From positions 1 to 47,364 of the forward strand of contig CANRJA010000014.1 of NCBI GenBank assembly GCA_947630825.1: 47,364 bases of DNA, written 5' to 3'. This DNA is from an uncultured Clostridia bacterium. Its GTDB lineage: Bacteria; Bacillota; Clostridia; Oscillospirales; Ruminococcaceae. This document shows, piece by piece, positions 6,727-46,122 of this stretch (position 1 is the stretch's first letter; each line of letters starts with the position of its first letter). The notes beneath the pieces are model-generated. The model ran no database searches. It saw only the letters and a program-made list of their open reading frames with translations, and was not told the DNA's origin. A program made the position numbers and the translations under genes.

Positions 6727-6735
6727 AGTTGGCGT

Positions 6736-6819: not shown

Positions 6820-6868
6820 TATTTAGTTTAAAATTTTAGAGTTATACACACCTTCTTTATTATAATGT

Positions 6869-6914: not shown

Positions 6915-7188
6915 TTATACAATATTGTAAGCAAGTAGTTTAATCTAATAATTGATATATACATTCTAAAGCCCCTTAATTTAAAATTTTGTAAAGCCGC
7001 ACCTATTCAATTAACAAAAAAATAAATTTAACTTTAATCTACTTTATTTCATTTTATCACATATTACGTTAATTGTCAATACTAAATATATTAATTTTTT
7101 GTAAATATTTATGATATGATTTTTTTACTTTACTTTTCTTATTAATTATTATATAATAAATATAATTATATTAACAAGGAGAAATACT

Positions 7189-24132: not shown

Positions 24133-24801
24133 TTAAATCATTTTTTCTCGCATAGATAAGAGAAGTTTTTTCTCTCTTCTTGAAACTTGCACCTGCGTCA
24201 TATCAAGCAGCTTAGCTGTTTCGGTCTGGGTTTTATTTTTAAAATATCTGAGATAAAGAAGCTTAGCGTCCTTTCTGTCAAGAGAGGATATGATTTGTTT
24301 AAGCGTCAGACTGTTTGTGATTTCCTCGTCAGGTGAGGATATAGGAATATCTATCTCAACAGACGAATCGTCATCATACCCTCCGGAAGCAAGACTTAGC
24401 GGGGGGAGGGAAACATTGAGAGCCTCAACAACGTCCTCCTCCGGGATATCGGCAAGTTTAGCAAGCTCTTCAATAGTAGGTTCTCTGCCTTTTGTGCGTA
24501 TAAAGCGTTCTCTTATCTGGGTGATTTTTAGCGATAATTCTTTAAGGCTTCTTGACACCTTTATAGTTCCGCCGTCTCTGAAAAGTCTTTTTATCTCACC
24601 CAAAATAACAGGAACCGCGTAGGTAGAAAATTTTACACCCCTTGTGTCGTCGAAGCCCTTGGCAGCTTTTAACAGCCCTATACAGCCTGCGCCGTAAAGG
24701 TCGTCGTAGTCTATACCTTTTGAACGAAATTTGTTCGCACACAGATGAACAAGTCCCAAGTTGTCCTCTATGAATTTTTTATTGCTCTCAAGTCCAATCA
24801 T
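24133..24801 (-). CDS. sigF: RNA polymerase sigma-F factor, forespore-specific
   Basis: Directs the first forespore-specific gene expression after asymmetric division. The 222-residue sigma-70 family protein has region 2 (YDDLYGAGCIGLLKAAKGFD, VKFSTYAVPVILGEIKRLF), region 3 (GREPTIEELA) and region 4 with a helix-turn-helix (KTQTETAKLLDMTQVQVSRR). It is the last gene of the spoIIAA-spoIIAB-sigF operon, 54 bp after spoIIAB, which with the domain match distinguishes SigF from SigG. Confidence 0.95.
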   Translation of the reverse strand: MIGLESNKKFIEDNLGLVHLCANKFRSKGIDYDDLYGAGCIGLLKAAKGFDDTRGVKFSTYAVPVILGEIKRLFRDGGTIKVSRSLKELSLKITQIRERFIRTKGREPTIEELAKLADIPEEDVVEALNVSLPPLSLASGGYDDDSSVEIDIPISSPDEEITNSLTLKQIISSLDRKDAKLLYLRYFKNKTQTETAKLLDMTQVQVSRREKKLLLSMREKMI

Positions 24802-24855
24802 ATTTTTACCATTCCTGAGTAGATTTTACTTATCCGTATGTATGCGATAAAGCGG

Positions 24856-25305
24856 TTATTGCTCCAGCTTAGTCTTGAGCTTTTTGGTTAGGATAACAGA
24901 AGTTCCCTTTCCCTCCTTGCTGAGAACCTTCAGCTTGTCCATAAAGCTTTCCATAACTGCAAATCCAAGACCGGCGCGTTCCTCCTCGGGAGAGGTTGTA
25001 AAGAGAGGCTCCATTGCCTTTTTTATATCGGGAATTCCGCAGCCGTGATCCTTTATTTTTATGTAAATCACGTTATCCTCGTAAATTCTGGCGACAAGCT
25101 CTATTTTTCCTATTTCGTTTTTGTAGGCGTGAACTATTGAGTTTGTAACCGCCTCGGAGACTGCGGTTTTAATGTCTGAAATCTCATCGACCTGCGGATC
25201 GAGCTGCGATGCAAAGCCCGATACCACAAGCCGTGAAAACCTTTCGTTTTCCGAAAGGCTGGGAAAGCTCAGCTTTATTTCGTTAAGAATTTTTTTCTTC
25301 GGCAT
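24856..25305 (-). CDS. spoIIAB: anti-sigma-F factor / serine kinase SpoIIAB
   Basis: A GHKL-fold protein that holds sigma-F inactive and phosphorylates SpoIIAA. From the ATG at 25305 (MPKKKILNEIKLSF), preceded by GGAGG, it is 149 residues. It has the N-box AVSEAVTNSIVHAYKN (about 48-63), KDHGCGI (86-91) and the ATP-lid segment EEERAGLGFAV (about 108-117). A longer reading to 25452 would add 49 residues unlike any SpoIIAB and lies wholly within spoIIAA. The start overlaps the spoIIAA end by 23 bp, indicating translational coupling. Confidence 0.95.
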   Translation of the reverse strand: MPKKKILNEIKLSFPSLSENERFSRLVVSGFASQLDPQVDEISDIKTAVSEAVTNSIVHAYKNEIGKIELVARIYEDNVIYIKIKDHGCGIPDIKKAMEPLFTTSPEEERAGLGFAVMESFMDKLKVLSKEGKGTSVILTKKLKTKLEQ

Positions 25306-25768
25306 TTCCGTCAACCTCCTCTGATGTCTTTTTATTATTTTTATCATTGTCGTTTTTGTGAATATCAATATCTGCCTGCACCTGAATTGACGGCTTATCA
25401 GAACTTTCAGCAGACTCTTTCGCCTTTTGCATTTCAGAAAGCGGAACGTCAATGCTAACTATTTTGGCAAGCTTGTTTATCCCTGCGACAAGCATAACCT
25501 TTTTTATCAGCGGAGGAGGATTTTGAATGTAAACCTTTCCGCCCCTTTCACTTTGCAGTTTGTATCTTCCCATAACAAGACCTATCCCCGAGCTGTCCAT
25601 AAAGTCTACCTTTGAAAAGTCGAGATACAGATCGGTTGGGTTGAGCTTTTGAACATTTATGTCGATTTCCTTTCTTATCTCTTTTGCACTGTGATGGTCT
25701 ATCTCTCCGCTTATATACGCAGTTAGCTTAGATTTCTCTTCTACCTCGTCGTATATTTTAAGTCCCAA
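25283..25768 (-). CDS. spoIIAA: anti-anti-sigma factor SpoIIAA with extended acidic tail
   Basis: A STAS-domain protein that releases sigma-F by binding SpoIIAB when unphosphorylated. The STAS domain (1-110) contains MDSSGIGLVMGRYK, with Ser60 as the expected phosphorylation site. At 161 residues it is about 45 longer than the usual 116; the extra C-terminus is charged and low-complexity (HKNDNDKNNKKTSEEVDGN). It begins with AGGAAG as ribosome binding site. Upstream, TTGACA (25862-25867) and TGTTAT (25838-25843), 18 bp apart on the minus strand, are a possible promoter. The sigma-H promoter known for this operon in other species was not clearly seen. Confidence 0.93.
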   Translation of the reverse strand: MGLKIYDEVEEKSKLTAYISGEIDHHSAKEIRKEIDINVQKLNPTDLYLDFSKVDFMDSSGIGLVMGRYKLQSERGGKVYIQNPPPLIKKVMLVAGINKLAKIVSIDVPLSEMQKAKESAESSDKPSIQVQADIDIHKNDNDKNNKKTSEEVDGNAEEKNS

Positions 25769-32543: not shown

Positions 32544-33689
32544 TTAATATGAACTTATTATCTTTCCTTTAACATCATTATAGTATCTAAGCGCTGATTT
32601 ATCTTTTCCGCTGCTTTTTGCTTCATACAGAGCATTGTCCGCCTGACGAAAAAGAGAATCAAAATCCGTTTTTTTATTTTCGACAATAACCGCTCCGATA
32701 CTGCAGCTTACCTTAACACCTATGCGCTCCTCCGATTTTTTTCTAAACCTTTCGCTTATATTAAGACACTTATTAGCCAAGTTTTTCTCATCGGTCATAC
32801 CCTTTACAAGAACTATAAACTCGTCGCCTCCAAAACGTCCGATTATATCGTTTGAACGGAAAACACTTTCCAGAACTTCTTCGATACAGCAGAGAACAAT
32901 ATCCCCGTTTTGATGTCCAAGGGTATCGTTTATTCTTTTGAAGTCGTCTAAATCAAGAAAAAGCATAGAACAGTATACTGAGGGATTATAAAACTCAATA
33001 TATTTCTGTATTTGCTTCTGACATCCCTGCTTATTATAGATACTTGGAAGTAAAACATCTCTTGTACTAAGCTCTTTAAACTTGATACGGGTTTGGTAAT
33101 CTCTTATTCTCAATCGAACAATTATAACAGCTACAACAAAGGAAAAGCCCAAACTAACTATTGTTTCAAACACATCGTACTGCCCGATAGCAGGATCCTT
33201 AAAGAGTATTATAGCTATTGCATATATAATTTCAAAAAAGCCAATCATTCCAAAAGAAAGCGAGAGAGGAAAAATAAACACGGCAGGCAAAGCCACGCAT
33301 AACATCGGCATAAAACAGCTGGGCTCCATCTTATCGCTGAATACGTCTATAAGGATTATAAACGTAAAAAGAATAATCTCAAAGAGAATACAAAGTGCAG
33401 TGACTATTTTGGGACTCGTTTGAACCTTTTTCTTGCATAGAAACACAACTATGCAAAACAGCATAGATATCGGTAAAAAAACTACGTGCTGCGGTGACGG
33501 GCTCCAACCCTTTATTATGAACGGTGTTAGAAAAAGAAAAATTAAAAGCAATATAACTGTTGCAAAACAAAGCTTCTCTAATATGCTCAAATTCAACTTT
33601 GCAATTTCAAATTTTTCCTTGCTAAAATACTGCCGTCTGTTTTCAAATTGCTTTTTTTCATTTATAATTAGTTTTTTTATAATAACCAA
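32544..33689 (-). CDS. membrane diguanylate cyclase (GGDEF)
   Basis: Makes c-di-GMP from GTP. The 381-residue protein begins at a TTG (AAAGGGAAGGGAG upstream). It has about six membrane helices between 37 and 205, with no recognised ligand-binding domain. A complete GGDEF domain follows: LDLDDFKRINDTLGHQNGD, the active-site GRFGGDEF (284-291, signature 287-291) and the product-inhibition I-site RxxD (Arg278-Asp281). It is likely active and feedback-inhibited. It is the last minus-strand gene of the cluster, 80 bp after the Hpt gene, and faces the kinase operon. It is the only intact cyclase in the window, so it is the probable source of ligand for the riboswitch at 45992. Confidence 0.93.
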   Translation of the reverse strand: MVIIKKLIINEKKQFENRRQYFSKEKFEIAKLNLSILEKLCFATVILLLIFLFLTPFIIKGWSPSPQHVVFLPISMLFCIVVFLCKKKVQTSPKIVTALCILFEIILFTFIILIDVFSDKMEPSCFMPMLCVALPAVFIFPLSLSFGMIGFFEIIYAIAIILFKDPAIGQYDVFETIVSLGFSFVVAVIIVRLRIRDYQTRIKFKELSTRDVLLPSIYNKQGCQKQIQKYIEFYNPSVYCSMLFLDLDDFKRINDTLGHQNGDIVLCCIEEVLESVFRSNDIIGRFGGDEFIVLVKGMTDEKNLANKCLNISERFRKKSEERIGVKVSCSIGAVIVENKKTDFDSLFRQADNALYEAKSSGKDKSALRYYNDVKGKIISSY

Positions 33690-33769: not shown

Positions 33770-34126
33770 TTAATTGTTGCCATTAATAGCCTTTATAATA
33801 TCGTCGTAAGCCTTAGTAATATCAGGCATCATATCAACTGCGCCCTGCCAGTTATCTGAACGAAAAGCCCCCACCTGACAGGTAAGCAGGTTAAATAGTT
33901 TAGTCATAGAAAGATTGCCGCTTACTCCTTTTAGTGTATGTGAAGCAGTAAGCGCTGCTTCCTTATCATTAGCGGCAATGGCTTCTGTCAGCTTTTTATA
34001 ATTTTCGTCTGCTAAAAATTTGTTTAAAAACTTTTCTAAAAGACCTTCATTTCCCATAAATCGTTCCAATGCAGCGTCCACGTTGATATTCGCATCACTT
34101 AATTGTTTTTTTCTTAAAGCGTCCAC
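33770..34126 (-). CDS. stand-alone histidine phosphotransfer (Hpt) protein
   Basis: A 118-residue helical Hpt domain with phospho-acceptor His63 in ASHTLKGVSGNLS. Hpt proteins shuttle phosphate between the receiver of a hybrid kinase and that of a response regulator. The gene follows the REC-HD-GYP gene by 12 bp and lies opposite two hybrid kinases that lack Hpt domains. It is therefore the natural link between them and the HD-GYP protein; the pairing is inferred from position. Confidence 0.9.
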   Translation of the reverse strand: MDALRKKQLSDANINVDAALERFMGNEGLLEKFLNKFLADENYKKLTEAIAANDKEAALTASHTLKGVSGNLSMTKLFNLLTCQVGAFRSDNWQGAVDMMPDITKAYDDIIKAINGNN

Positions 34127-34138
34127 AATAAAATCCTC

Positions 34139-35236
34139 CTACACGTTATTTTTAGTATATAGATGATGGAGCGTTTCTTCCGCAGAAAAGAAACAATCCA
34201 AAAGATGGGGATTAAACACTCCGCATTGACCGTCACGGATCATCTCTAAAACCGTCTCACGGGGAAAAGCGTCCTTATAAACACGCTTACAGCTAAGAGC
34301 GTCGTAAACATCAGCCAGAGAGACGATTTGGGCGCCAAGTGAGATCTCATCACCCTTAAGTCCGTCAGGGTAGCCTCGTCCGTCCCAGCGCTCATGGTGG
34401 TGACGTGCAATATCATAAGCGTAATAATATATGCCGTTTTCACGAAGCTGAGGTATCTTTTCCAATAATTGAGCGCCTTGTATCGTATGAGTTTTCATTA
34501 TCTCAAACTCCTCCGACGTCAGCTTGCCGGGCTTGTTAAGAATATAATCCGGAATAGCTATTTTTCCCACGTCGTGCATAATAGACGCTAAAGCAATGTT
34601 GTTGATATCATCTTCGCTCAGACCGTCGCCCATTTCCGTATTAGTCAGCAAAAACTCTGTTATATCGTGAATTCGTCTGACGTGCTCGCCCGATTCTCCG
34701 TCTCGGAACTCAATAGCCGTTGACAAGGCTTCTATCATACCCTGATTAAGCTCGATTATCTTCTGTGATTTTTCCAAAAGCTCCAAGCTCTGCCGTTCGA
34801 CCTGATTGCCCAAACGCTTACGAACCTGGAACAGCTCCACAATAGAATTTACCCGACGCAGTACCAAATACGGCACTACAGGTTTAAGTATTACGTCCAT
34901 TACCCCCAGTCGATAAGCTTCCTTTATCGTATTGTCGTTAGCCTCGGCAGTTATCATAAACACAGGTATTTTCTTTACAAGACCAGCCTCTTTTAAATGA
35001 TGAAGCACTTCCAGACCGTCCATTTCCGGCATCATTACATCTAAAAGAATCGCACAGTATTTCTCAGGATCATCAAGAATCTTGTTAAGACCAATTTTTC
35101 CGTTTTCCGCTTCCTCAGCAATATAATAATCACAAAAAATATTGTCTAAAATACCGCGGTTGATCTCATCATCGTCAACGATAAGTATATGATCGCCGGA
35201 TATATATTTGTTTTTCTTCAATATAGAAGATCCCAT
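34139..35236 (-). CDS. response regulator with HD-GYP c-di-GMP phosphodiesterase domain
   Basis: A RpfG-type enzyme that hydrolyses c-di-GMP under receiver control. I take the ATG at 35236, which has GAGGAG upstream, giving 365 residues; 35257 is in frame but lacks such a site. The REC domain (about 14-130) has phospho-acceptor Asp66 (ILLDVMMPEMDG) and the conserved Lys in VILKPVVP. A helical linker precedes the HD-GYP domain (about 160-360), with the metal-binding HD pair in ASIMHDVGKIAIP (221-222), HHHERWDGRGYPDGL with the GYP signature (288-290), and ADVYDAL. All key residues are present. It has its own promoter at 35281-35309 and is followed by Hpt. Confidence 0.94.
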   Translation of the reverse strand: MGSSILKKNKYISGDHILIVDDDEINRGILDNIFCDYYIAEEAENGKIGLNKILDDPEKYCAILLDVMMPEMDGLEVLHHLKEAGLVKKIPVFMITAEANDNTIKEAYRLGVMDVILKPVVPYLVLRRVNSIVELFQVRKRLGNQVERQSLELLEKSQKIIELNQGMIEALSTAIEFRDGESGEHVRRIHDITEFLLTNTEMGDGLSEDDINNIALASIMHDVGKIAIPDYILNKPGKLTSEEFEIMKTHTIQGAQLLEKIPQLRENGIYYYAYDIARHHHERWDGRGYPDGLKGDEISLGAQIVSLADVYDALSCKRVYKDAFPRETVLEMIRDGQCGVFNPHLLDCFFSAEETLHHLYTKNNV

Positions 35237-35280
35237 AATTATCTCCTCACAAACCACTGCTATTTATGTTTATACTTACT

Positions 35281-35309
35281 ATTCTACACTATATTTTTAT
35301 TTTTTTCAA
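35281..35309 (-). promoter_or_regulatory. internal sigma-A promoter for HD-GYP and Hpt
   Basis: On the minus strand TTGAAA (35304-35309) and TAGAAT (35281-35286) are separated by 17 bp, about 45 bp upstream of the HD-GYP start. The phosphodiesterase and Hpt could thus be made even when the riboswitch stops the main transcript. Confidence 0.65.
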
Positions 35310-35312
35310 ATG

Positions 35313-36242
35313 TTATAACATAAAATCCTTTGCACTTGCATCTTCCTCTGCTAGCAAATCCTTTAAAGGCTCATAGTAGTGATACGCAAAGCTGAGCTTT
35401 GAATACCCAAACTGCTCTTTAAGATTTTTCGCAGATTTCCACAACGGCTCCAATCCTTCGCCGGCATAGGTGTTTATGTCTTCCAAGTCGTGTTTTCCGG
35501 CTTCTTGAAGCTCGTATATGCAAATGATTTCTTTGTTTTGTTCTCTTGCCAGTTTAACTTCTGCCTCAATTTGACCGTATTCGTCGCTGCGGTTATAGTT
35601 CATAACAGCCAAACCGTCGCAAGCATTTTCAACCAAACTATCCAAAACGCCTTCACATGCTTCATCATAAAATGTCGGAACGCAAACAATAAATTCCAAA
35701 CCGTTTTGCTTAGCGTATCGATATGCGTTTTTGATACATTCCAGATAGTTCTCCATCAATTCGTCGCGAACATCGCCCTCCTCGCTCCATTCATCTAAAA
35801 GGTAAGGCTCAACATCTACCATAACCCCAACTATACGATATTTTTTGTTGTTTTTATTATAGTCCGCAACGCGCTTAATTTCTCCGATAAGAGTTTCAGC
35901 GTCAGTCTCATAAGCCCACTCAGCGTCGCCAAACAGAGCGTAAACCTGAATATTGTTTTCCTTCATACGTTCAAGAAAGCCTTTCGCTTCTTCGGATTCT
36001 AACACATCATCAGAAAAATGCTGATATATTTTTGTTACATCTGCCTGACCAATACATTTTTCCAAATTATCCGTTTCATCCTCAGAAATTGCAGCGTTAC
36101 CCCAACTGAACATTCCGAAACCCTGACTAGGCTGTGTTTGTTGAACTTTACTCGAATTTTTGTAATTGATTACAAAGACAACGGTAACTGCTATGCAAAT
36201 GATCAGTATAATGCAAATTGAAAACAAAATTCTCTTTTTCAT
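35313..36242 (-). CDS. membrane-anchored TIM-barrel-like protein, possible glycoside hydrolase
   Basis: From the ATG at 36242 (MKKRILF, preceded by GAGG), 309 residues: an N-terminal signal anchor (about 5-25) and an extracytoplasmic domain. The domain has strand-loop patterns of a TIM barrel: IQVYALFGDAEWAYE, IVGVMVDVEPYLLDEW, LEFIVCVPTFYDEA and CDGLAVMNYNRSDE. The last resembles glycosidase or deacetylase-like barrels found in exopolysaccharide operons. Acidic residues at strand ends (DVEPY) could be catalytic. I cannot assign a family. Its place in the matrix cluster suggests trimming or modifying the polymer outside the cell. Confidence 0.6.
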   Translation of the reverse strand: MKKRILFSICIILIICIAVTVVFVINYKNSSKVQQTQPSQGFGMFSWGNAAISEDETDNLEKCIGQADVTKIYQHFSDDVLESEEAKGFLERMKENNIQVYALFGDAEWAYETDAETLIGEIKRVADYNKNNKKYRIVGVMVDVEPYLLDEWSEEGDVRDELMENYLECIKNAYRYAKQNGLEFIVCVPTFYDEACEGVLDSLVENACDGLAVMNYNRSDEYGQIEAEVKLAREQNKEIICIYELQEAGKHDLEDINTYAGEGLEPLWKSAKNLKEQFGYSKLSFAYHYYEPLKDLLAEEDASAKDFML

Positions 36243-36275
36243 AAGTACCTCGATACCCAAAAGTTATTGTTATTG

Positions 36276-38087
36276 TTATTGTTTTTGTTTTAAAATTTCC
36301 GACTGAGCTTCCCATTCGGGAATAGGATAATGAAACCTAAAGCCCTGAATTATATCGCAGTCTATTTTTTGCAGTTCTGCAATTTGTTCGTCGCTTTCTA
36401 TTCCCTCTGCCATAATAGCAATGTTCAGCTCATGGCCGATCCTTGACATTGCTTTTAAAATAGCATTTCCCTTTTCGGTGTTAATGTTGTCAACAAGGTT
36501 TTTATCCAGTTTCAAGCCGTCGACAGGGTATTCATGCAAATCGAAAAATGAAGTAAATCCCTCGCCGAAATCATCAAGCAGAATACGTATTCCAAGCTCT
36601 TTCAAGGCGTTTGCGTTTTTATGGACCTGAGATATGTTTCTTACCGAAGTGCTTTCGGTTATCTCAAAAACAAGCATTTTTCTTGCAAATTTATGCTTTC
36701 CTATAATTTTCTTACAAACATCAATAAAATCAGCAGATGAAAAGGTTTTCCTTGAGAAATTACAAGAAATGAAAAAGTTTTCAATTCCCCTTTTATACAG
36801 TCTATCCAAAAAGGCGCACGCCTTTTCAAGAGAATAGTAATCCATTCTGCTTATCAGATCCTCACGCTCCATCAGAGGAACGAAACGCTCAGGAGTAAGA
36901 AATCCTTTTTCGGGGTGCTGCCATCTTGACAGCGCCTCGCCGCCTACTATCTTATAAGTATGGGCGTCCACATAGAATTGAATGTATAACAAAAACTCCT
37001 CATTCTCAAAACCTCTGTTGATATCAGCCTGAAGTCTTCTTTCTTCAATAAAGTGGTCTATCATTTCATCAGAGCAGATTTTATAATCCAGCTTTTCTCG
37101 ATAAGCCGACATAGCGCTTTGCCAAGAATTGAATATCATTTCATTCAAATCACGGTCGTCAGACTTCAAGGGATAAACACCTGCAGCAATATCGCACGAA
37201 TATGCCTTGCCGTTATTTTCCGAAAAGCTGCGTATCCTATTCAATGCAGGGATCACCCACTCGTCTATATCCTGCCCTTGCGACAATTTAAGGAATATAA
37301 ACCCGACGTCAGAAACTCTTGCCAGAACATCAGTTTCAGATGTATAGTCCTGAAGAACCACAGCAGTATACTTCAAAAACTCGTTTGTCTCCTGGTGACT
37401 GCTCATACGCTCCATTCTGTCTGTATCGACGTAGAAGCAGAACATACTATATAAAATCCTGTTTTTATCGTTTACAAGCGAATTATAGTACCTTACAAGA
37501 TGGTCGGTATTTCCTATTCCGGTTATCTCGTCAGTTTCCTTATTCTGCTCGTATTTTTTCAGCTTGCGGCGGTATTTTCTAACCAGCAGTATCACAGCGG
37601 TTAAAAGTATAAGCACCGCCAAAGATAAGCTGATAAGTGAAGTCTGAATAAACTGCCACGACTTTATCGGAGTATGTTCCTTAACGTCAACGAGTATTCC
37701 TGTTTTCATTTCCTCAGTAACGCCTGAAAAATAATTTTGCAGGTCTGACTTTAAAGACTCAGGCGCGGCGTCGGAAATAAACAGCCTATAAGATACCGGC
37801 TTACCGTTTTTGACAGTCTTAAAAACAACAATAGAATCATCTTCAGTATGTTCAAAAGACTCAGAATCAACACATCCGGAAATTATATCCACCTGTCTGT
37901 TAGCTGCCAGTTGAGCTCTTTCGTCCTTGCTGTTTTTATTATAGTATTTTATTTTATAATTGCTTTGTTCTGAAAACTGATTTAACAGCTTTGGAATCAC
38001 GCCCTGATAGTTCTCCGTATCAGCATCATAGTATTCTATAGGATACAGATCAGGATTTCCCGCTGTGTAGATAATTATTTCTTCCAT
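36276..38087 (-). CDS. membrane protein with partial SBP_bac_3, degenerate GGDEF and EAL domains
   Basis: A probable c-di-GMP phosphodiesterase of 603 residues. Residues 1-90 resemble one lobe of a family 3 solute-binding domain (ANRQVDIISGCVDSES), and a membrane helix lies at about 147-168. The GGDEF domain (about 185-330) is degenerate: RVSDVGF replaces the GGDEF loop, so no cyclase activity is expected. The EAL domain (about 345-595) keeps its key residues: GGEALSRW, the Asn in FFISCNFS, FEITES, LLDDFGEGF, LKLDKNL, MAEGIES and QGFRF. No signal peptide precedes the N-terminal domain, which starts almost at its first strand. It has an AGGAGA ribosome binding site and lies 68 bp after the GT2 gene. 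Confidence 0.88.
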   Translation of the reverse strand: MEEIIIYTAGNPDLYPIEYYDADTENYQGVIPKLLNQFSEQSNYKIKYYNKNSKDERAQLAANRQVDIISGCVDSESFEHTEDDSIVVFKTVKNGKPVSYRLFISDAAPESLKSDLQNYFSGVTEEMKTGILVDVKEHTPIKSWQFIQTSLISLSLAVLILLTAVILLVRKYRRKLKKYEQNKETDEITGIGNTDHLVRYYNSLVNDKNRILYSMFCFYVDTDRMERMSSHQETNEFLKYTAVVLQDYTSETDVLARVSDVGFIFLKLSQGQDIDEWVIPALNRIRSFSENNGKAYSCDIAAGVYPLKSDDRDLNEMIFNSWQSAMSAYREKLDYKICSDEMIDHFIEERRLQADINRGFENEEFLLYIQFYVDAHTYKIVGGEALSRWQHPEKGFLTPERFVPLMEREDLISRMDYYSLEKACAFLDRLYKRGIENFFISCNFSRKTFSSADFIDVCKKIIGKHKFARKMLVFEITESTSVRNISQVHKNANALKELGIRILLDDFGEGFTSFFDLHEYPVDGLKLDKNLVDNINTEKGNAILKAMSRIGHELNIAIMAEGIESDEQIAELQKIDCDIIQGFRFHYPIPEWEAQSEILKQKQ

Positions 38088-38155
38088 AAAACTTCTCCTG
38101 ATTTTCCTATCCGCACTTGAATAGAAAATATAAATATAATGTAATCAGAGTATTG

Positions 38156-39559
38156 CTATTTGAAATTAATTTTACTTCTTTCGATCTTTCCCCAGCTTTT
38201 CTTTTTCTTACGGTACCCTATAAGCGACGCCATACGAACCCACGCCAGTATAAACCTAAGACAGGAAACCTCAAGCATACAAAAGCCTATAGCCTTGAGA
38301 GTGTCTGTAAATACAAGTTTTAGGTCTATAGTATGAACTCGGGCAAAAAACGCCGTCAGCGACAGTATAGACGAATAAACAACATAGATAGCCAAATACA
38401 AAAGCATAAAAGGAACATTCAGAAAATCTACCAAGGAAGCAAAAATCATAGTAAGCACGCCAAACACTTCTATGTAAGGTGAAAGGAGCTCGTAAATAAG
38501 AAAGTAAAGGTAAGATATAAAGCTCACCAGACCGTATTTGATATTGCCTAAAATTTTTCTGTGAGTTATCATACTCTGAAACAGCCCGATATGCCATCTT
38601 CTCCGCTGTCTGCATAGATCCTTCAGCTTTTCCGGCACCTGCGTCCAGCAGATAGCGTCGTTAGCATATCGTATTTTGTAAGGGATTTCGTTCTCACGGC
38701 AGAAAACGTGCAGCTTTACGACAAGCTCCATATCCTCGCCTACGGTGTTCACGTCATAGCCGCCGGCATTTACAACAACGCTTTTCTTAAACAGCCCGAA
38801 CGCCCCCGAAATTATAATACTTCCGTTAAACTTATCAAAAAGAATACGCGTTGCCAAAAAGGTACGGTCGTATTCCATGACCTGCATACATGATAATACC
38901 TTATTAGGCATATGATACTGAACAACACGTCCGTTTTCAATAGAAGCTCCGTTGCAGGGACGCACCGAACCGCCTACCGCTACTACATCATTGTCCTCTA
39001 ATACCGGACGAACGATTTTTTCTAAAGAATCCTCCTGCAAAACAGAATCGGCGTCCATACAAAGAAAATACGGATATTTAGATGCGTTGATACCCATATT
39101 AAGAGCGTCCGCCTTGCCTCCGTTTTTCTTGCGTATAAGCGTTATAGGTACTTTGAAGCCTTTACTTTCATATACCGATTCCACCTGCTGACATGGAATC
39201 ATTCTTTGTATGGGGCGGTTGATATGGTGCATATTAAACGCTTCCCTGACCACCTTTGAGGTATCGTCTAAAGAGCCGTCATCAACCACTATGATCTCAT
39301 ACAATTTATAGTTCTGAGCCAGCAAAGATTTTATCGTAAATTCTATAGTTTTTTCCTCGTTATAAGCCGGTATGATAATGGAAACAGGAACGTAATAATC
39401 ATTAAGCAGTTCATTTTTAAGCGTATTGCGCCGTTTAAGGCTGTATAAAGACGACGAGCCGACTGCCACAGATAAAAACAAAAAGGTTGCATACCCTGCT
39501 AAATATAACACAAAGAAAATCCCGACAAAGTTAAAAAACATCTGAATTATATCTCTCAC
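38156..39559 (-). CDS. processive family 2 glycosyltransferase (polysaccharide synthase)
   Basis: A membrane synthase of the cellulose/hyaluronan/PNAG synthase type. The 467-residue protein has an N-terminal helix (about 10-33) and a GT-A domain with VPVSIIIPAYNEEKTIE, VVDDGS, the DxD motif in CMDADSVL, the general base in VGEDMEL, and the acceptor motif QRRRW. Several C-terminal helices (about 345-430) would form the export channel. No PilZ domain is attached, so c-di-GMP control would act through transcription or another protein. Its start overlaps the HEAT gene end by 4 bp (coupled). The polymer is unknown. Confidence 0.92.
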   Translation of the reverse strand: MRDIIQMFFNFVGIFFVLYLAGYATFLFLSVAVGSSSLYSLKRRNTLKNELLNDYYVPVSIIIPAYNEEKTIEFTIKSLLAQNYKLYEIIVVDDGSLDDTSKVVREAFNMHHINRPIQRMIPCQQVESVYESKGFKVPITLIRKKNGGKADALNMGINASKYPYFLCMDADSVLQEDSLEKIVRPVLEDNDVVAVGGSVRPCNGASIENGRVVQYHMPNKVLSCMQVMEYDRTFLATRILFDKFNGSIIISGAFGLFKKSVVVNAGGYDVNTVGEDMELVVKLHVFCRENEIPYKIRYANDAICWTQVPEKLKDLCRQRRRWHIGLFQSMITHRKILGNIKYGLVSFISYLYFLIYELLSPYIEVFGVLTMIFASLVDFLNVPFMLLYLAIYVVYSSILSLTAFFARVHTIDLKLVFTDTLKAIGFCMLEVSCLRFILAWVRMASLIGYRKKKKSWGKIERSKINFK

Positions 39560-40668
39560 GTCGCAGCCCCCTTATCCTCTTGCTCTAAGCGGCGTGAATC
39601 AAGACGGTACATTATCATTTCTCTAGCGTACCTATCCTTTCCGCCAACTACCTCTATCAAATCTCTGTAATTCAAGTGGTGATTTTCCAAACTTATCGAG
39701 GCATTGTATCTCACATACCAGTTAGAGCTGTGCATTGCCTCCATAAGTACATTCAATACATCTTCTCCCTCATACCTCGCAAGAGATGTCGCGCTTATAG
39801 CCGCATACTCCCAGTGGATTGGATTTTTGTCCGAGACAAAAGCTATCAATGGCTCTTTTGCCTTTTCATAAATGTACTTTCCAAAATAACGTATAGCGGA
39901 TAATCTTATCTCTTTATCCTTTGATTTATCTTGCATAATGGCAAACATTTCCTCGCAGTAGTCTCCCGACTTGAAACGAATGTAGTTAAGTATTGATAAT
40001 TGCACTCTTTCTGAAAAATCTTCTATTTTGCCCCAGAGCATATGGATAAGTTTATTATGATTTCCTTTAAACGAAAGAAGTCCGTCAGTCAGAATTTTCT
40101 CATGCATAAAAGAGTCGCTTCTGTCCAATATAGAAATAGCCTCTGTAACGCTTTTCTCGTCTCCGAAGGTGTAAAGCGCCTGCAGGGTGTTTATTCGGCA
40201 ATACAGACTGTCCTTGTTCATATACTCAATCATAACACTCTGTATGCCGTCCATATTCATATAGTTTTTAAGGTTGTGCTTTTCGATAAAATATGCAAAG
40301 TACGCACACTGTAAATTATCCCGCTTCTGATAAACTCCGGCAAGATACAGCATTACAGGCTGTAAAAGACCCATATATTTAGCAAATGCCTGTTCATCAT
40401 TAGGTGTGATATTCTCTAACGCCCTGTCAAATGCCATTAGATTATGTACATGGCAGAGCCTTTTCTCAAGGTAAGAAAAATGCTTCTTTTGAACCTCTTG
40501 CCCATCTTGAATTCTGTCAATTTGCTGTGTAACTTTCTTTCTGTATTTTTTGCTTCTTTTCTTTAACCTGCTATCGCTGCCTTTTAAAATCATATTGTAA
40601 ACGAAGTTAAAGATGATCATACCAACGCATACCGCTCCGTATCCGTAAAGCAATATTTCAATTCCCAA
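39556..40668 (-). CDS. membrane-anchored HEAT-repeat protein
   Basis: A 370-residue protein with an N-terminal membrane helix (about 5-28), a basic segment (KKRSKKYRKKVTQQIDR), and then paired helices typical of HEAT repeats to the end (DKEIRLSAIRYFGKYIYEKA, WEYAAISATSLARYEGEDVL, WYVRYNASISLENH). Such repeats are protein-interaction scaffolds. It is translationally coupled to the GT2 gene, so it probably partners the synthase on the cytoplasmic side. That partnership is inferred. Confidence 0.85.
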   Translation of the reverse strand: MGIEILLYGYGAVCVGMIIFNFVYNMILKGSDSRLKKRSKKYRKKVTQQIDRIQDGQEVQKKHFSYLEKRLCHVHNLMAFDRALENITPNDEQAFAKYMGLLQPVMLYLAGVYQKRDNLQCAYFAYFIEKHNLKNYMNMDGIQSVMIEYMNKDSLYCRINTLQALYTFGDEKSVTEAISILDRSDSFMHEKILTDGLLSFKGNHNKLIHMLWGKIEDFSERVQLSILNYIRFKSGDYCEEMFAIMQDKSKDKEIRLSAIRYFGKYIYEKAKEPLIAFVSDKNPIHWEYAAISATSLARYEGEDVLNVLMEAMHSSNWYVRYNASISLENHHLNYRDLIEVVGGKDRYAREMIMYRLDSRRLEQEDKGAAT

Positions 40669-40694
40669 AACACTTCACCCCGTTTTCAAAAGTC

Positions 40695-42971
40695 TTATTT
40701 ATTTTGTGATGTCCAGTAGTCTTTAAGCATATAGTATGATTTTTTAAGTCTCTCATGATAAGTTACTGTTTTGCCCCAGCCCTTTAAATCAAAGGACGGC
40801 ATCTTTAATCTGTATTCTGTGTTTTCCGACGAGCCGATACCTACATACATTTTGTCAATGTTCAAATTTTCAATGCCGTAACACTCGTAATAGTCGTCGT
40901 GAATCATCATCTCCGACGGATTGCTGAAATTCAAAAGCTGCCAGGGAATTCTTATTTCAACATAATCGCCCGAGAAGATAAAATCTGATAGAGAGTCAAA
41001 ATCCTCAGCGTCCGGATTGGCGTTTCCGTACCTCAGCTTGCCCGTATCGAATTTCTCACCAACTGGAACTTTTGGAACTATATCTTCTTGAGGTAAAACA
41101 TCTTCAACCCTCAAAGGCATATATATTTTTTTAAAAACCGGACTGTCCTTTTTCGGAGGATCTACATAAGGGTCAATGGCATAGTATTCATTAGCGTAAG
41201 TTGACCTCAGTGCCTCATACCGCTCCTGAACTTCAATTCTGCTGTTTTCTTTGCCGTTTATCACCATAAGAAAATCACTTGCACGTTCAAAAGAAACATC
41301 ATAGTTTTCACAGTATGTGCTTCCAATTTTCGGGTTGGTATCTATAGGCAGATACAGCGTGTCTTTTTTTGGGTCAAAGTTTTCTTTGTGAACTAAAAAA
41401 TATAAAAACTTCTCATCGTATTTCATTGACAGATCCATATCGCCCGACTTAACGACATTATCTTTCTCCGTCCATTCAGATATATCCCCGTCTACGTAGC
41501 AAACGCTTTTCTCCTCGCCCGGATCAAAGCTCAAAAGCCCGAAAAACTGCTCATTTGTTTGGTAGTCGCTCCAATATGGCGTATTATCTAAATCGACCGA
41601 ATACATAGTGTTCCATGTACGCTTGAACCATTCGTCCTGCCATGAAAATACACAGCTTCCGGCACAGCCTGCATCTTTAATGTCTTTATAGCAGTCAATA
41701 AGAGCCTGCCCTTGCTCCTGCTCATTCATATGACCCTGGTTACGATTGGTGTTTTTGTCCTGCTGCGCGATACCGCGACCAGTAGTTACTCCGTATTCGG
41801 AAATTACAACAGGTATATTATGAAATCTGTTCAGAGCTTTTAAATATGCTATATACGTATTTGTTCTTCCTAAAGAATCGACATAATCCTCATTCTTTAA
41901 ATAATCCTCAATTTTAGGTCCTTTCAACAAAGAGATTCGATACTTTAAATTATTATAATGTAAAATATCGAATTTTTTCTTTAAAAATTCTTCTGTGTAG
42001 TTTTTTGTTTCAAGTATTGTCTGCAAATAGTCAGGATAATAGGAATAAATATGATATGAGGCAAAATATCCTGAAATAAAAGAATCAGTGGTTTTTATAT
42101 GCTCTACATTTAAAACAGCGGTCTTCAAGCGGTACGAGGTCACAGTTATCGGATAAACAAAGGGGTCTGTCGTTGACCAGTTTGAAAAAGCCAGCAGTCT
42201 CTGCTGTTTATACCTTTTTGATTCATACTCGATCATTTTGTCGCCAGCCTCACACAGCATAGTCTCAAAAGGCGTAGCGTCTTCTGTAGTTTGAAGGTAC
42301 TTTCCTTTATACCCGGTTTTATCATAGCTGTTTTGATTGGTATATGTCACAATACTTGTTTCCCATTCAACGCCTATAATGTAACCTATAACCCATTGTG
42401 AAACGTCCTTGCGGTAGCTTCCCGAACCCTTATTGCCGTATGAAAGCGACAGACTTATTTTCCCGTGAAGAACGTCAACAAGCGTTCTGCAATCGTCTTT
42501 AAGCGTTTTAAAAAATTCATCATCATAGGCGTCGCAATGCGAGTTTAAGATGTAGTCATTAACCCAAACTCCGTGAAGCATATACAGCGGTTCTCTGCCC
42601 ATTTTTTCGCGCTCGGCATTATACTTGAAAAACGCATTGTAAAAATCGTCGTGCAAAATAGTGTAAACACGAATGGTGTTTGCGCCAAGCTCCTGAATCT
42701 GACTGAACCACCTAAGATATGTTTCCTCATCAATGGAAAAGTCGGTCGCCCACTCGCCTGGAATACCCACGCCCATATCAACGCCGCGTATCTCATATGG
42801 AGTATACTCGCCGTTTTGCTTCATATATATAGTATCTTCATCAGTTCTCATAAAAGTTGTAACAGGAGCGTTGGGAGCTAAATCAATATAAATTCCAAGA
42901 CGATAATATGCTATATTCCACACAAGCGCAGCCGCTACTATAACACATACCGCAACAATGAATTTTTTCAA
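40695..42971 (-). CDS. exported glycoside hydrolase-like protein with C-terminal carbohydrate-binding-like domain
   Basis: A 758-residue protein with an N-terminal signal anchor (about 3-24). A (beta/alpha)8-type domain (about 60-480) has clan GH-A-like features: IRGVDMGVGIPGEW, LGANTIRVYTI, IGYIIGVEWETS with a candidate acid/base Glu, and VVISEYGVTT with a candidate nucleophile Glu. A beta-rich C-terminal region opening with CYVDGDISEWTEKDN (about 500-740) is the usual start of CBM9/DOMON-like domains. Export-linked glycosidases are regular members of exopolysaccharide operons, where they trim or release the polymer. The exact GH family is not assigned. It lies 30 bp after the CotH gene and 26 bp before the HEAT gene. 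Confidence 0.75.
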   Translation of the reverse strand: MKKFIVAVCVIVAAALVWNIAYYRLGIYIDLAPNAPVTTFMRTDEDTIYMKQNGEYTPYEIRGVDMGVGIPGEWATDFSIDEETYLRWFSQIQELGANTIRVYTILHDDFYNAFFKYNAEREKMGREPLYMLHGVWVNDYILNSHCDAYDDEFFKTLKDDCRTLVDVLHGKISLSLSYGNKGSGSYRKDVSQWVIGYIIGVEWETSIVTYTNQNSYDKTGYKGKYLQTTEDATPFETMLCEAGDKMIEYESKRYKQQRLLAFSNWSTTDPFVYPITVTSYRLKTAVLNVEHIKTTDSFISGYFASYHIYSYYPDYLQTILETKNYTEEFLKKKFDILHYNNLKYRISLLKGPKIEDYLKNEDYVDSLGRTNTYIAYLKALNRFHNIPVVISEYGVTTGRGIAQQDKNTNRNQGHMNEQEQGQALIDCYKDIKDAGCAGSCVFSWQDEWFKRTWNTMYSVDLDNTPYWSDYQTNEQFFGLLSFDPGEEKSVCYVDGDISEWTEKDNVVKSGDMDLSMKYDEKFLYFLVHKENFDPKKDTLYLPIDTNPKIGSTYCENYDVSFERASDFLMVINGKENSRIEVQERYEALRSTYANEYYAIDPYVDPPKKDSPVFKKIYMPLRVEDVLPQEDIVPKVPVGEKFDTGKLRYGNANPDAEDFDSLSDFIFSGDYVEIRIPWQLLNFSNPSEMMIHDDYYECYGIENLNIDKMYVGIGSSENTEYRLKMPSFDLKGWGKTVTYHERLKKSYYMLKDYWTSQNK

Positions 42972-43001
42972 GGTCCGTCACCTCCTGATAAATGATTTAT
43001 A

Positions 43002-44492
43002 CTAGTGGTTATACTTCTTATTTCTAGATGGATGGCAATACTGTTTAAGAGTGTAAATATTTTCATCAAGCCATTCTCCGCGATTTTGAAGCCATGTTTT
43101 AAGCTGATCTACCGCTTCCTCGTGAGTTTTCAGATTACGTGATTTCGGAGTAAGCAGCTGCTCTTTAAAAGATCCAGCCCATCGCTTGTTATTTCGCTCA
43201 ACCGCAGGTCCAAGATAGTCAAGCGTATCATCTATATAATCAAACAAATAATCGTCGTTAAAATATGTACTGCGCAGTTCTTTATATCGTTTTAATATCT
43301 TATCGACAAATTCCTCATCTTTTATCAACATGAAAAACCATGCCTTGTAAATATTTGCAAACCCCTCCGTTGTTCTTATGTCATTCTGATCATTATCACA
43401 ACAATTGTTAAAATCCCAAACACACAATTTGTACTTCTCATCTATTTCCCTATAAACATATGTAGAATATCTTCCCGCATCGACATTCTCGGTAAATTCA
43501 TTAATAAGCAGATAATCAACAAAATTATCCGTATCTATCCAATTCCAGTATCCATAGTCTTCCGTATCATAGTCATAGGAAAACAGCGCTTTTTCAAATT
43601 TGGCATATTCAAGCTCAATGTTTTTTCTTCGCTCCTCTGTTAGATTAGGCTTTTTGGGATAACGTATACTTACATCATTATGAAGCGAATCGGTACGCTC
43701 CATATAAGAATAGATATCCCTAATTGATTCTAATTCAGCTTCAGTCGGTCTGTCCAGTCTGAGCAAAAAGCCGTTAATTTCATTATCCTTAACATTTTCA
43801 CTAAGATTAAGCCGGCAGTTCTCCCCATCTGTTATTGCCTCCACCATAATGTAAAGTCCTCGATAATCGCCGTTTATAAAAACCTCGCAGAAGCGCACAT
43901 TTGGCGCATAATCCATTATTTCGCCTGATATATTATACCACATATAATTGCGGACCATTGACTTATCAAGATAGGGTCCGTTTAAAACCCATTCGTGATG
44001 AGCGTCCATACCCATTACTGAAATATCCCTATTTTCACCATTGCTATCCACAAAATCAAGCAAATACGGTGCTTTTTCAAAGTGTCTTGAGGAATGGCCT
44101 CTCATGCGAAACAAACTGCGTGTTGTAAAATCCGGCTTATCGGTAAGATGGTTATTGCCTTTGCTTTCTATGTCGTTGTCAATTACAGAAACCTTTACAT
44201 TGATATAGTCGTTACCGTCCAAGGCTGTAGTGTAAATAGGCTCGCCGAATTGGTCAACCTCTCCGTTAGGAACACCCGGTATTTCCTGATTTTCAGTATC
44301 AATAACGACCAGCGGAAGATGCGAACAGAACACATCATCATTATGGTCGGTACACGGAGTGTATGCCGCTGCTTCCTTATGCTGGTGGTAGCGCTGGTTA
44401 TTTTCATCAGTATTCAAAGGAGAATACGAAAATGAAAAACACACTAACAGCATAACCGCCGTCATAACTAAGCCAAAAATCTTGAATTTCAT
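43002..44492 (-). CDS. exported CotH-family (kinase-like) protein
   Basis: A 496-residue protein with a signal peptide (1-23) and a CotH domain: FRMRGHSSRHFEKAPYLLDF, WVLNGPYLDKSMVRNYMWYN, FCEVFINGDYRGLYIMVEAI and CVWDFNNCCDND. CotH proteins are secreted or spore-coat atypical protein kinases. In the usual metal-binding WDxD motif the second Asp is Asn here, so activity is uncertain. CotH, VTC and DUF4956 genes often occur together in bacteria, as here. The substrate in this setting is unknown. It has an AGGAG ribosome binding site. Confidence 0.88.
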   Translation of the reverse strand: MKFKIFGLVMTAVMLLVCFSFSYSPLNTDENNQRYHQHKEAAAYTPCTDHNDDVFCSHLPLVVIDTENQEIPGVPNGEVDQFGEPIYTTALDGNDYINVKVSVIDNDIESKGNNHLTDKPDFTTRSLFRMRGHSSRHFEKAPYLLDFVDSNGENRDISVMGMDAHHEWVLNGPYLDKSMVRNYMWYNISGEIMDYAPNVRFCEVFINGDYRGLYIMVEAITDGENCRLNLSENVKDNEINGFLLRLDRPTEAELESIRDIYSYMERTDSLHNDVSIRYPKKPNLTEERRKNIELEYAKFEKALFSYDYDTEDYGYWNWIDTDNFVDYLLINEFTENVDAGRYSTYVYREIDEKYKLCVWDFNNCCDNDQNDIRTTEGFANIYKAWFFMLIKDEEFVDKILKRYKELRSTYFNDDYLFDYIDDTLDYLGPAVERNNKRWAGSFKEQLLTPKSRNLKTHEEAVDQLKTWLQNRGEWLDENIYTLKQYCHPSRNKKYNH

Positions 44493-44535
44493 TCACTCAT
44501 CTCCTCTAAATGTATTCTATATATATTGCTGTTCT

Positions 44536-45213
44536 TTAACTGCTGATGTCGTCATTTTGCATAACCATATTAAAATACTCTATATTCCCAATGGCGTAAA
44601 CAGCGTCTGTAATACTCTTTCCTGCTTTCTTTTCCCTGTCAATAAGTCTTTTGTTTATCTCAAAGATAAATTCCACGCCGGTTTCGGTAGTATTTTTAAC
44701 ACGAAGGTTTGCTTTTCTTGAATAACGCTGGAATATCAAGGCTTCGACCTTATCCTCGTTGACCCTCGCCGTTCTAATTATAAGAAGCATTCTTCCGTCA
44801 TTTCGCAGTCTGCCGAAAAGCAGCAGAAGTACAAACGCAAAGGCGCTTCCTACTGCCGCAACAAGATAATCTCCCGAACCGCAGCATATACCCACAACTA
44901 TAGTCCAGAAAATATAAACCGTATCTCTCGAATCCTTTATAGCCGTTCTGAAACGCACAATGGAAAGCGCACCCACCATACCGAGTGAAAGCGCGATATT
45001 GTTTCCGATAACTATCATAACCGTTGTGGTTATCAGCGTAAGAGCAACTAAAGATACGTTAAACTTTTTACTGTAGATACTTCCGTCATGAGAAAGCCTG
45101 TAGGATAAAAATATGAAACAGGCTATAACAGCGGCAGCCGCCAGACGTATAATTATAATTTGTGTTGTAAGATCTCCGCTTGAATCAAAAAGATTTAAAA
45201 GTTGTTCTCTCAT
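44536..45213 (-). CDS. DUF4956 membrane protein
   Basis: A 225-residue protein with four hydrophobic helices in the first 130 residues (LVALTLITTTVMIVIGNNIA, SLGMVGALSIVRFRTAIKDS, FWTIVVGICCGSG). A soluble C-terminal domain follows (LLIIRTARVNEDKVEALIFQ). The GMVGALSIVRFRTA motif is the mark of the DUF4956 family, whose genes accompany VTC and CotH genes. No function is established. Starts 19 bp after the VTC gene, same transcript. Confidence 0.88.
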   Translation of the reverse strand: MREQLLNLFDSSGDLTTQIIIIRLAAAAVIACFIFLSYRLSHDGSIYSKKFNVSLVALTLITTTVMIVIGNNIALSLGMVGALSIVRFRTAIKDSRDTVYIFWTIVVGICCGSGDYLVAAVGSAFAFVLLLLFGRLRNDGRMLLIIRTARVNEDKVEALIFQRYSRKANLRVKNTTETGVEFIFEINKRLIDREKKAGKSITDAVYAIGNIEYFNMVMQNDDISS

Positions 45214-45232
45214 ATTTATTATTCTCCTGTCA

Positions 45233-45928
45233 TTAATATTGATATTTAAGCACGGCGCTTCGCGCCAGACAATACTTGCTCACAGACAACTCTGAGCGAT
45301 CCGCCGTGTTTACCAAACTCTTTATGTGGCTGAGTAAAAAGCCGTTATACTTAACCTCGAGAACCGCATTAAACGGGTCAAGTACAGGGTACAAGTTCAA
45401 ACTTGGTGAAAATATATCAAAGCCTGCCTCTGTTGCTGTTATATGATGATCCAGTGTTATGCGGATATGGTTTTCCTTAGCGATAAAGGCACGCCTCTGA
45501 TATTCAACCGCCGCTTTGGGACGATAACATCTGCTGTGCATAAGTCCATACATTTCGTGAGCAAAAGGATCATCGTATTTCAATAGAACAGAATAGTCGC
45601 ACTGTATAAGCTGTTCGGCATCCGTTCGGCTTACTCTTAAAGACCGTTTTCTTTGGTATGCTCCTTCTTTTTTCTTTTCCTCCAGCATTGCGAAGTCCGC
45701 GTTCGGGTCATATATCCTCAGACGTATTTTACGCCTAAGCTCCAATCCGTTGATTTTATCATTGTAATCGCTATCTTCGGGCGTATCATAATATAATGAC
45801 CGAATACGATAGCCCAGAGCGCCGTTGTGTTCGTCCTCCTGCATAACGCTGCTTAAAAGACCGCACAGCTTTTGACCGTCTGCTATTGTCATCAAGTATT
45901 TCTTTTCCTGTCTCAAAACCTCATTCAT
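45233..45928 (-). CDS. VTC-domain protein (polyphosphate polymerase-like)
   Basis: A 231-residue VTC domain, the fold that makes polyphosphate from ATP in yeast VTC4. The basic tunnel and metal residues are visible: RQEKKYLM near the start, RIRSLYYDTP, ELRRKIRLRIYD, LEEKKKEGAYQRKR, AVEYQRRAF, RITLDHHIT, AVLEVKYNG and SKYCLARS. It is the first gene behind the c-di-GMP riboswitch, with GGGGTGAT as ribosome binding site. Bacterial stand-alone VTC proteins have no settled role; linkage to CotH suggests phosphate supply or phosphorylation in the envelope. That is inference. Confidence 0.88.
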   Translation of the reverse strand: MNEVLRQEKKYLMTIADGQKLCGLLSSVMQEDEHNGALGYRIRSLYYDTPEDSDYNDKINGLELRRKIRLRIYDPNADFAMLEEKKKEGAYQRKRSLRVSRTDAEQLIQCDYSVLLKYDDPFAHEMYGLMHSRCYRPKAAVEYQRRAFIAKENHIRITLDHHITATEAGFDIFSPSLNLYPVLDPFNAVLEVKYNGFLLSHIKSLVNTADRSELSVSKYCLARSAVLKYQY

Positions 45929-45950
45929 ATTTCATCACCCCAATCACAAC

Positions 45951-45996
45951 AAAAGCTGCAAAACTTACACCATAAGAATGGTTGATGTTTTGCAGC
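45951..45996 (-). terminator. riboswitch-controlled intrinsic terminator
   Basis: On the minus strand GCTGCAAAAC (45987-45996) pairs with GTTTTGCAGC (45955-45964). An additional ACCAT/ATGGT pair lies above it, and TTTTGTTG follows. The 5' arm includes the last bases of the aptamer (GGCTGC), so aptamer closure and terminator formation are mutually exclusive. It lies 23 bp before the VTC start. Confidence 0.85.
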
Positions 45997-46070
45997 CTGA
46001 CAATCATAGCGGTTTAAATTACCGCCGTAGACTCATAGCTTTGCGCCGCCTCTTTTCAAAGGCTTTGCCC
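45992..46070 (-). ncRNA. c-di-GMP-I (GEMM-I) riboswitch aptamer
   Basis: Read on the minus strand, the segment has the GEMM-I conserved blocks in order: GGGCAAAGCC, TTTGAAAAGAGGC (GNRA-type tetraloop arm), GCGCAAAGCT, GAGTCTACGGCGGTAA, and CCGCTATGATTGTCAGGCTGC without its last base. The GCA of the first block can pair with UGC at the 3' end to close the outer helix. That 3' strand is also the 5' arm of the following terminator. Stabilising the aptamer should therefore block termination (an ON switch), which is inference from the overlap. It lies upstream of VTC and the whole matrix cluster. Confidence 0.88.
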
Positions 46071-46092
46071 TTTTTTCCAAATTATCCAGCGT

Positions 46093-46122
46093 ATAGTATT
46101 TAAAAATTTATTCTAATATCAA
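46093..46122 (-). promoter_or_regulatory. proximal promoter of the riboswitch transcript
   Basis: On the minus strand TTGATA (46117-46122) and TACTAT (46093-46098) are 18 bp apart. Transcription would begin about 15-20 nt before the aptamer. Confidence 0.5.

Follow-up and report, generated by a model that had tools for sequence, protein, structure and literature searches.

Contig CANRJA010000014.1 of an uncultured Clostridia bacterium (Ruminococcaceae), a stretch of 47,364 nucleotides (nt) that was analyzed whole and is called the window here, carries a class I riboswitch for cyclic di-GMP (c-di-GMP) in front of a minus-strand gene cluster in which a predicted polysaccharide synthase stands next to a VTC-domain protein, a DUF4956 membrane protein and a CotH-like kinase (the trio, below). 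The riboswitch match, the gene order, its conservation and the pattern of modules are firm observations. Taking the evidence together, we lean, if only slightly, toward reading the locus as an exopolysaccharide system that is activated by c-di-GMP, is distinct from Pel and includes a portable phosphate module. So read, it belongs to a known kind, synthase-dependent exopolysaccharide under c-di-GMP, the unusual part being the phosphate module; we hypothesize that the exopolysaccharide itself is phosphate modified.

A c-di-GMP-I riboswitch with an overlapping terminator

An earlier note on this DNA had proposed a GEMM-I aptamer followed by an overlapping terminator, and both were recovered. The Rfam covariance model RF01051 (c-di-GMP-I, or GEMM-I) matched over its full length at positions 45988 to 46079 of the minus strand, scoring 73.9 bits where the gathering score is 35 (E 9.2e-13); no other Rfam match in the window reached that threshold. 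Downstream lies a predicted intrinsic terminator hairpin with a T-rich tail (45953 to 45998, minus strand), whose 5' arm begins 11 nt inside the 3' end of the aptamer and which is the predicted expression platform. A promoter-like site directly upstream of the aptamer, TTGATA-18-TACTAT (46093 to 46122, minus strand), agrees with the consensus at only 9 of 12 positions.

The same overlap is seen in related loci. Scored by a script and without a shuffled control, 35 of 37 class I leaders have the terminator's 5' arm inside the aptamer end; one of the 37, the leader of locus L168, serves another cluster. In the two leaders missed by the script (L224 and L170) the overlap is visible by eye, imperfectly so in L224, and inspection by eye also places the terminator over the aptamer end in three class II leaders. 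Since the terminator begins inside the aptamer, the ligand-bound aptamer and the terminator should compete, and c-di-GMP is thus predicted to switch transcription on. Judged from this hairpin geometry, the riboswitch should be an ON switch for c-di-GMP.

Gene order is conserved across a sporadic but wide distribution

Ten closely spaced minus-strand genes follow the aptamer, encoding, in order, the VTC-domain protein, DUF4956, CotH, a glycosidase-like (GH-like) protein, a HEAT-repeat protein, a GT2 glycosyltransferase, a GGDEF-EAL protein, a 315-amino-acid (aa) protein, a response regulator with an HD-GYP domain and an Hpt protein. The short gaps reported earlier measure 12 to 68 nt among these genes, with a 4-nt overlap between HEAT and GT2; these gaps, like all locus distances, were computed from mechanical starts of open reading frames (ORFs). 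Pfam matched every one of the VTC, DUF4956, CotH, HEAT and GT2 domains that had been read from the translations, and the trio does adjoin GT2 synthase genes.

The earlier note had also let its case hang on whether this gene order is kept elsewhere, which it is. A scan of named genomes matched at least 595 stretches, at least 555 of them relatives; the 80 best by similarity to the window family, obtained with one query, are referred to as the named loci, and counts made on them describe near relatives. The order VTC-DUF4956-CotH-GH-like-HEAT-GT2 is complete in 66 of these 80. Thirteen of the 14 incomplete loci run off their contig, and the remaining one (L227) has a split CotH. No pair of GH-like proteins from the named loci exceeds 95% identity. 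An EAL gene follows GT2 in 49 of the 63 loci whose sequence runs on for at least 2500 nt beyond GT2.

The distribution of the cluster is sporadic but wide. With the window's own genome included, the GH-like alignment found a match in 14 of 297 genomes in a family search and in 29 of 391 in a class search. Among the carriers are Flavonifractor sp. An10, Blautia parvula, Eisenbergiella porci, Faecalicatena faecalis, Holdemania sp., Neglectibacter timonensis and metagenome-assembled genomes of Gordonibacter; clusters are present in Eggerthellaceae too, and a plasmid of Planococcus maritimus XJ11 carries the six-gene set, as judged by annotated names.

The GH-like-HEAT-GT2 triad also occurs by itself. 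It was found without the trio on a Deinococcus plasmid (in the stretch shown) and within the fetched stretches of L121-L123, L142 and L144-L148, and the triad thus seems to be a module separable from the trio. L121, L122 and L123 hold clusters of a second type, made up of an HD protein, a GH-like protein of 1013 to 1015 aa, HEAT, GT2 and two more GH-like proteins, with no VTC, DUF4956 or CotH within the fetched stretch; the cluster of L122 has a c-di-GMP-I aptamer upstream of its first gene, and the long GH-like proteins gave no Pfam match. Two clusters lie back to back in L168 (positions 1 to 7052), the six-gene cluster on the plus strand and, on the minus strand, a second-type cluster (GH-like and HD proteins) and its c-di-GMP-I aptamer.

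Riboswitches of both classes precede clusters of relatives

Among the 69 named loci that hold VTC, 31 have a c-di-GMP riboswitch directly before this gene: 28 of class I and three of class II, the latter in L165 (Flavonifractor sp. An10), L219 and L169 (the genome of G020). The 28 include a weak match in L185 (38.6 bits) and exclude the riboswitches of L168, which lies on the opposite strand, and L177, which lies 1.6 kb upstream. The riboswitch model used, R1, derives from 16 riboswitches of the present analysis, among them those of L151, L161, L186, L213 and L224; the Rfam search proper covered 13 of the 80 named loci and the search for class II covered 40 of the 80 genomes, and absences are for this reason not firm. 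The locus sets overlap and are not independent (L151=G014, L161=G075, L169=G020, L186=G351, L213=G605, L224=G473).

Parsimony on a quick GT2 tree (74 rows, 64 scored, 31 with a switch) requires at least 10 changes between presence and absence of the switch. Unless c-di-GMP control is under selection, it is difficult to account for the exchange of one riboswitch class for the other ahead of an unchanged first gene. Under stricter filters, eight genomes (G075, G207, G340, G351, G383, G473, G479 and G605) have their sole c-di-GMP-I match in front of the cluster.

Several results weigh against tying the cluster to the riboswitch. A riboswitch directly before VTC was not found in 38 of the 69 VTC loci, with search depth unequal among loci, and nine more cluster loci (L115, L119, L127, L129, L133, L137, L140, L141 and L150) gave no riboswitch match with Rfam. 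In L191 (Blautia parvula NBRC 113351), neither R1 nor RF01786 gave a c-di-GMP riboswitch. The sole c-di-GMP-I match lies away from the cluster in G360, G418 and G528, the cluster start is off the contig in G354 and G492, and the quick tree leaves 23 of its 71 inner branches open. With most loci lacking a switch before VTC, c-di-GMP control at that step is not essential to the system.

The trio as a candidate phosphate module

The first gene of the cluster (45233 to 45928, minus strand) encodes a VTC-domain protein (PF09359, E 3e-39) for which a cytosolic polyphosphate polymerase is predicted. Its family profile matches the Vtc4 polyphosphate polymerase (3g3q) with E 1.5e-4, the single sequence having only a chance-like match in PDB (E 0.49). 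K67, R69, R71, E83, K85, K94, R145, E191 and K193 are invariant in 19 diverse aligned sequences, charged residues which we take to be the Vtc4 tunnel positions. In the yeast VTC complex, Vtc4 works together with membrane subunits. The bacterial protein has a related Vtc4-type catalytic domain and likewise adjoins a membrane-protein gene, DUF4956 following VTC directly in 26 of 26 VTC loci fetched from relatives; there is no established kinship between yeast Vtc1 and DUF4956, and no SPX domain is among the Pfam matches of the window's VTC protein.

The DUF4956 protein (44536 to 45213, minus strand; PF16316, E 2.8e-13) has a conserved R-F-R at the edge of a hydrophobic segment, R89 being kept in 19 of 19 sequences and R87 in at least 90%, and is weakly MgtC-like (E 8.9e-5, below the cut-off). 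When ten neighbors of VTC-DUF4956 were tested, the third partner was CotH in L045, L049, L051 and L056, and the carbohydrate-binding family Cthe_2159 in place of CotH in L035, L041, L042 and L048, so that the pair changes its partner; the neighbors in L043 and L052 were ordinary genes (one ABC transporter, one tRNA synthetase). We infer that VTC and DUF4956 form a single functional pair.

The CotH-like kinase (43002 to 44492, minus strand) is a clear member of its family (PF08757, E 1.3e-55; 189.6 bits against a cut-off of 23.8), with a family profile that matches BcCotH (5jd9) at E 2.3e-5. K140, D176, E218, D338 and D360 are invariant in 14 sequences, the catalytic residues being, presumably, those that correspond to BcCotH. 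An N-terminal hydrophobic segment (signal or anchor) suggests that the protein is exported and acts outside the cell.

Such a trio has been described beside another synthase. In the accessible passages of PMC7112168 (2020), cotH, PPP, DUF4956 and DUF4832 are placed beside pel in Gram-positive bacteria, including non-sporing streptococci. As far as these passages tell, Gram-positive pel loci share with the window the trio of domains beside a polysaccharide synthase plus an anchored TIM-barrel glycosidase, and differ in the synthase, which is PelDEADAFG there and GT2-HEAT here. Membership of the window's cluster in the Pel loci was rejected: PelG (PF16933) was found in none of the 25 genomes searched that have all or a visible part of the cluster, several being incomplete assemblies, and in one of 14 as a positive control. 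According to the accessible part of PMC12345266 (2025), the trio was not found outside the Pel locus, the breadth of that survey not being given there; the loci described here show it outside pel, contrary to that statement.

Two points about the trio count against the preferred reading of the locus. In CotH, a Ser replaces the BcCotH Asn at +5 from the catalytic-type Asp, in an alignment stretch that scores -1.2 bits, and kinase activity is consequently not assured. In Streptococcus intermedius, deletion of the VTC homologue has no effect reported in the accessible passages of PMC12345266. The same passages feed the strongest rival, which we consider unlikely yet worth keeping in view: the trio would leave the polymer unmodified, with VTC, the MgtC-like DUF4956 and CotH tuning phosphate, ATP or synthase activity, and the product would be a plain polysaccharide. 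Deletion of the DUF4956-like gene raises Pel and deletion of the CotH homologue lowers it, which looks like control of amount; in 10% sputum medium either deletion also leaves less than half of the aggregation, and these changes in Pel level and aggregation count for the preferred reading too. The weak likeness of DUF4956 to MgtC and the occurrence of VTC-DUF4956 without the GT2-HEAT synthase, in the company of other partners, fit this rival as well. The hydrophobic segment of CotH, however, suggests a location outside, away from cytosolic control.

Within the reading of the trio as a phosphate module, one specific scheme can be spelled out, which we regard as speculative and, taken whole, rather doubtful. 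VTC and DUF4956 would form a two-part polyphosphate synthase-exporter, VTC polymerizing from ATP inside and threading the chain through DUF4956, whose R-F-R would guide the polyanion out. Outside, where ATP is scarce, CotH would use polyphosphate as phosphoryl donor on polysaccharide or matrix proteins. The module would combine with two or more unrelated synthases, among them Pel and GT2-HEAT, and come under c-di-GMP through either riboswitch class.

The predicted synthase and its partners

The reading of the GT2 protein (38156 to 39559, minus strand; GT2, E 1.3e-32) as processive in type, and hence as a predicted polysaccharide synthase, is supported. It has the motifs DAD169, GED274 and QRRRW318 together with hydrophobic stretches at its two ends, as processive GT2 enzymes do, and its family profile matches structures that include chondroitin, cellulose and chitin synthases. 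That it makes a known polymer such as poly-N-acetylglucosamine (PNAG) is improbable. The best NCBIfam match is indeed PgaC_IcaA (TIGR03937) with 153.2 bits, far below the equivalog cut-off of 422.3, and the ten proteins include no deacetylase and no PgaD/IcaD-like Pfam match at E<=0.1. The PgaC/IcaA synthase thus shares the processive motifs with different partner proteins, and membership in the PNAG synthases was rejected on the score.

The preceding gene (39556 to 40668, minus strand) encodes a HEAT-repeat protein (PF13646, HEAT_2, E 5.6e-11) with one N-terminal hydrophobic segment, the predicted cytosolic partner of the synthase. The gene after GT2 (36276 to 38087, minus strand) encodes a membrane protein with a degenerate GGDEF and an intact EAL motif (PF00563, E 1.8e-59). 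HEAT is fused to GT2 in L147 (by Pfam), and GT2 is fused to a degenerate GGDEF-EAL in L177 (8332 to 11661, a single frame of 1109 aa), fusions which speak for a joint function of HEAT, GT2 and the EAL protein. A script that looked for fusions among eight profiles, pair by pair, in ORFs of the fetched loci returned only GT2-EAL of L177, the HEAT-GT2 fusion of L147 falling below its thresholds, and no VTC-DUF4956 fusion. The GGDEF signature is lost in 13 of 13 aligned EAL proteins and the EAL-type motif is kept, which makes a phosphodiesterase with negative feedback likely; alternatively, the protein could be a receptor.

The exported glycosidase-like protein of the earlier note fared less well. 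The 758-aa protein (40695 to 42971, minus strand) does have an N-terminal hydrophobic anchor; it has no Pfam family of its own, no Pfam match at E<=0.1 and no GH family match. GH72 was weakly matched by 6 of 21 family members (best E 1.9e-5) and GH113 by one of 21, the L130 protein reaching 16.4 bits against a cut-off of 25.9, and on such weak matches the name "glycosidase-like" itself rests on weak evidence. No relative of solved structure was found at E<=1. Glu392, in the motif ISEYG, is invariant in all 21 aligned sequences. Counting against a glycosidase, only one of the two expected carboxylates is strict, E202 being Glu or Asp in 19 of 21 sequences and Asn in two. It is possible that the protein trims, transfers or binds the polymer.

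A possible spore-surface product, and the direction of the switch

A further rival makes the product a cell-wall or spore-surface glycopolymer instead of a biofilm matrix. It may draw on the family name of CotH, which points to the spore coat, and on a run of sigma-F/anti-sigma-like genes at 24133 to 25768 of the window, read from translations. Against it stands the trio beside pel in non-sporing streptococci, in the accessible passages of PMC7112168. Clusters in Eggerthellaceae and the presence of both c-di-GMP riboswitch classes in front of clusters likewise speak against this option, which we hold to be very improbable. Least probable is that the riboswitch is an OFF switch whose ligand promotes the terminator, for although c-di-GMP-I riboswitches are known in both directions, in nearly all class I leaders scored the 3' end of the aptamer doubles as the 5' arm of the terminator, so that folded aptamer and terminator should compete, and the class II leaders share this geometry.

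Relation to NELoc-2 of Clostridium perfringens

The earlier note had called the cluster apparently undescribed, which is only partly so. Table 4 of PMC2879425 (2010), a paper available to us in part, lists under NELoc-2 of Clostridium perfringens the six-gene order of the window, matched by names and sizes and not by sequence, and the trio is on record beside pel. In that table the DUF4956-sized protein is named tubulin/FtsZ, the GH-like position is held by a 685-aa hypothetical protein and GT2 is named chitin synthase; NELoc-2 differs in having a resolvase gene between two VTC/tubulin pairs and a sigma factor gene in front. Printed there as a disease-associated locus, it is not read as a polysaccharide system in the accessible passages, which offer a plasmid-segregation idea and have the word "riboswitch" solely in the reference list. 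The two tubulin/FtsZ GTPases look like DUF4956 by position and size, and the plasmid-segregation idea may therefore rest on misannotation. From the available parts of two other papers, NELoc-2 occurs in 23 of 41 isolates (PMC11677781), and its first VTC and DUF4956-sized genes are down in vivo (PMC4983038).

What stands of the earlier claim is the link to the riboswitch: we found no paper that joins a c-di-GMP riboswitch to the cluster, in a search whose coverage excluded most subscription papers and preprints, and none that treats DUF4956 together with a VTC domain, with or without CotH.

A proposed mechanism

In the reading that we prefer, a c-di-GMP-activated exopolysaccharide system with a phosphate module, high c-di-GMP would fold the aptamer and sequester the sequence that starts the terminator, letting RNA polymerase read the genes. 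GT2 would polymerize sugar and carry the chain across the membrane, partnered on the cytosolic side by the membrane-anchored HEAT protein, and the anchored glycosidase-like protein might trim, transfer or bind the chain outside. VTC would act as a cytosolic polyphosphate polymerase with DUF4956 as its membrane partner; CotH, outside, may phosphorylate the polymer or a matrix protein, or regulate the synthase. The EAL and HD-GYP proteins of the cluster would degrade c-di-GMP, which should limit the switch in time.

Other features of the window and genome

The remaining genes of the cluster, also on the minus strand, encode a 315-aa protein (35313 to 36260) with an N-terminal hydrophobic segment, predicted to be exported, for which ORF translation with Pfam and NCBIfam searches gave no convincing domain and no recognized family; a response regulator with an HD-GYP phosphodiesterase domain (34139 to 35257; HDVGK and HHERWDGRGYP; HD_5, E 1e-29); and a weak candidate Hpt phosphotransfer protein (33770 to 34126; PF01627, E 3.9e-5, 24.3 bits, just below the cut-off of 24.6). 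After a gap of 80 nt comes a GGDEF diguanylate cyclase gene (32544 to 33689, minus strand; PF00990, E 4.6e-35), which the earlier note did not include and which may belong to the putative transcription unit; L038 and L039 have a frame of the same size in the same place.

Upstream of the aptamer, at 46361 to 46178 of the minus strand, a strong promoter-like TTGACA-17-TATTAT is followed about 130 to 155 nt later by a hairpin with a T tail, seen by eye. This element, similar in four of five aligned same-genus loci (L034 differs), is possibly a small RNA gene. The genome has a second c-di-GMP-I aptamer (G000:C1:179970-180045; L003 about 5971 to 6046, plus strand) before a gene whose Thr-rich product has an LRR_5 region of the BspA type (E 9.4e-13), likely a second c-di-GMP target and perhaps an adhesin. 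At 2175 to 8073, integrase-like, replication-like and FtsK-like genes, read from translations, resemble an integrated mobile element.

Implications

By name and size, NELoc-2 of C. perfringens is made up of the same genes, and the accessible passages on it lack a reading as a polysaccharide system. The role of a secreted kinase-like protein beside a polyphosphate polymerase becomes a question that can be tested. With at least 555 relatives, the cluster is widespread, and for gut Clostridia it offers a clean connection, open to testing, between a c-di-GMP switch and a surface polymer.

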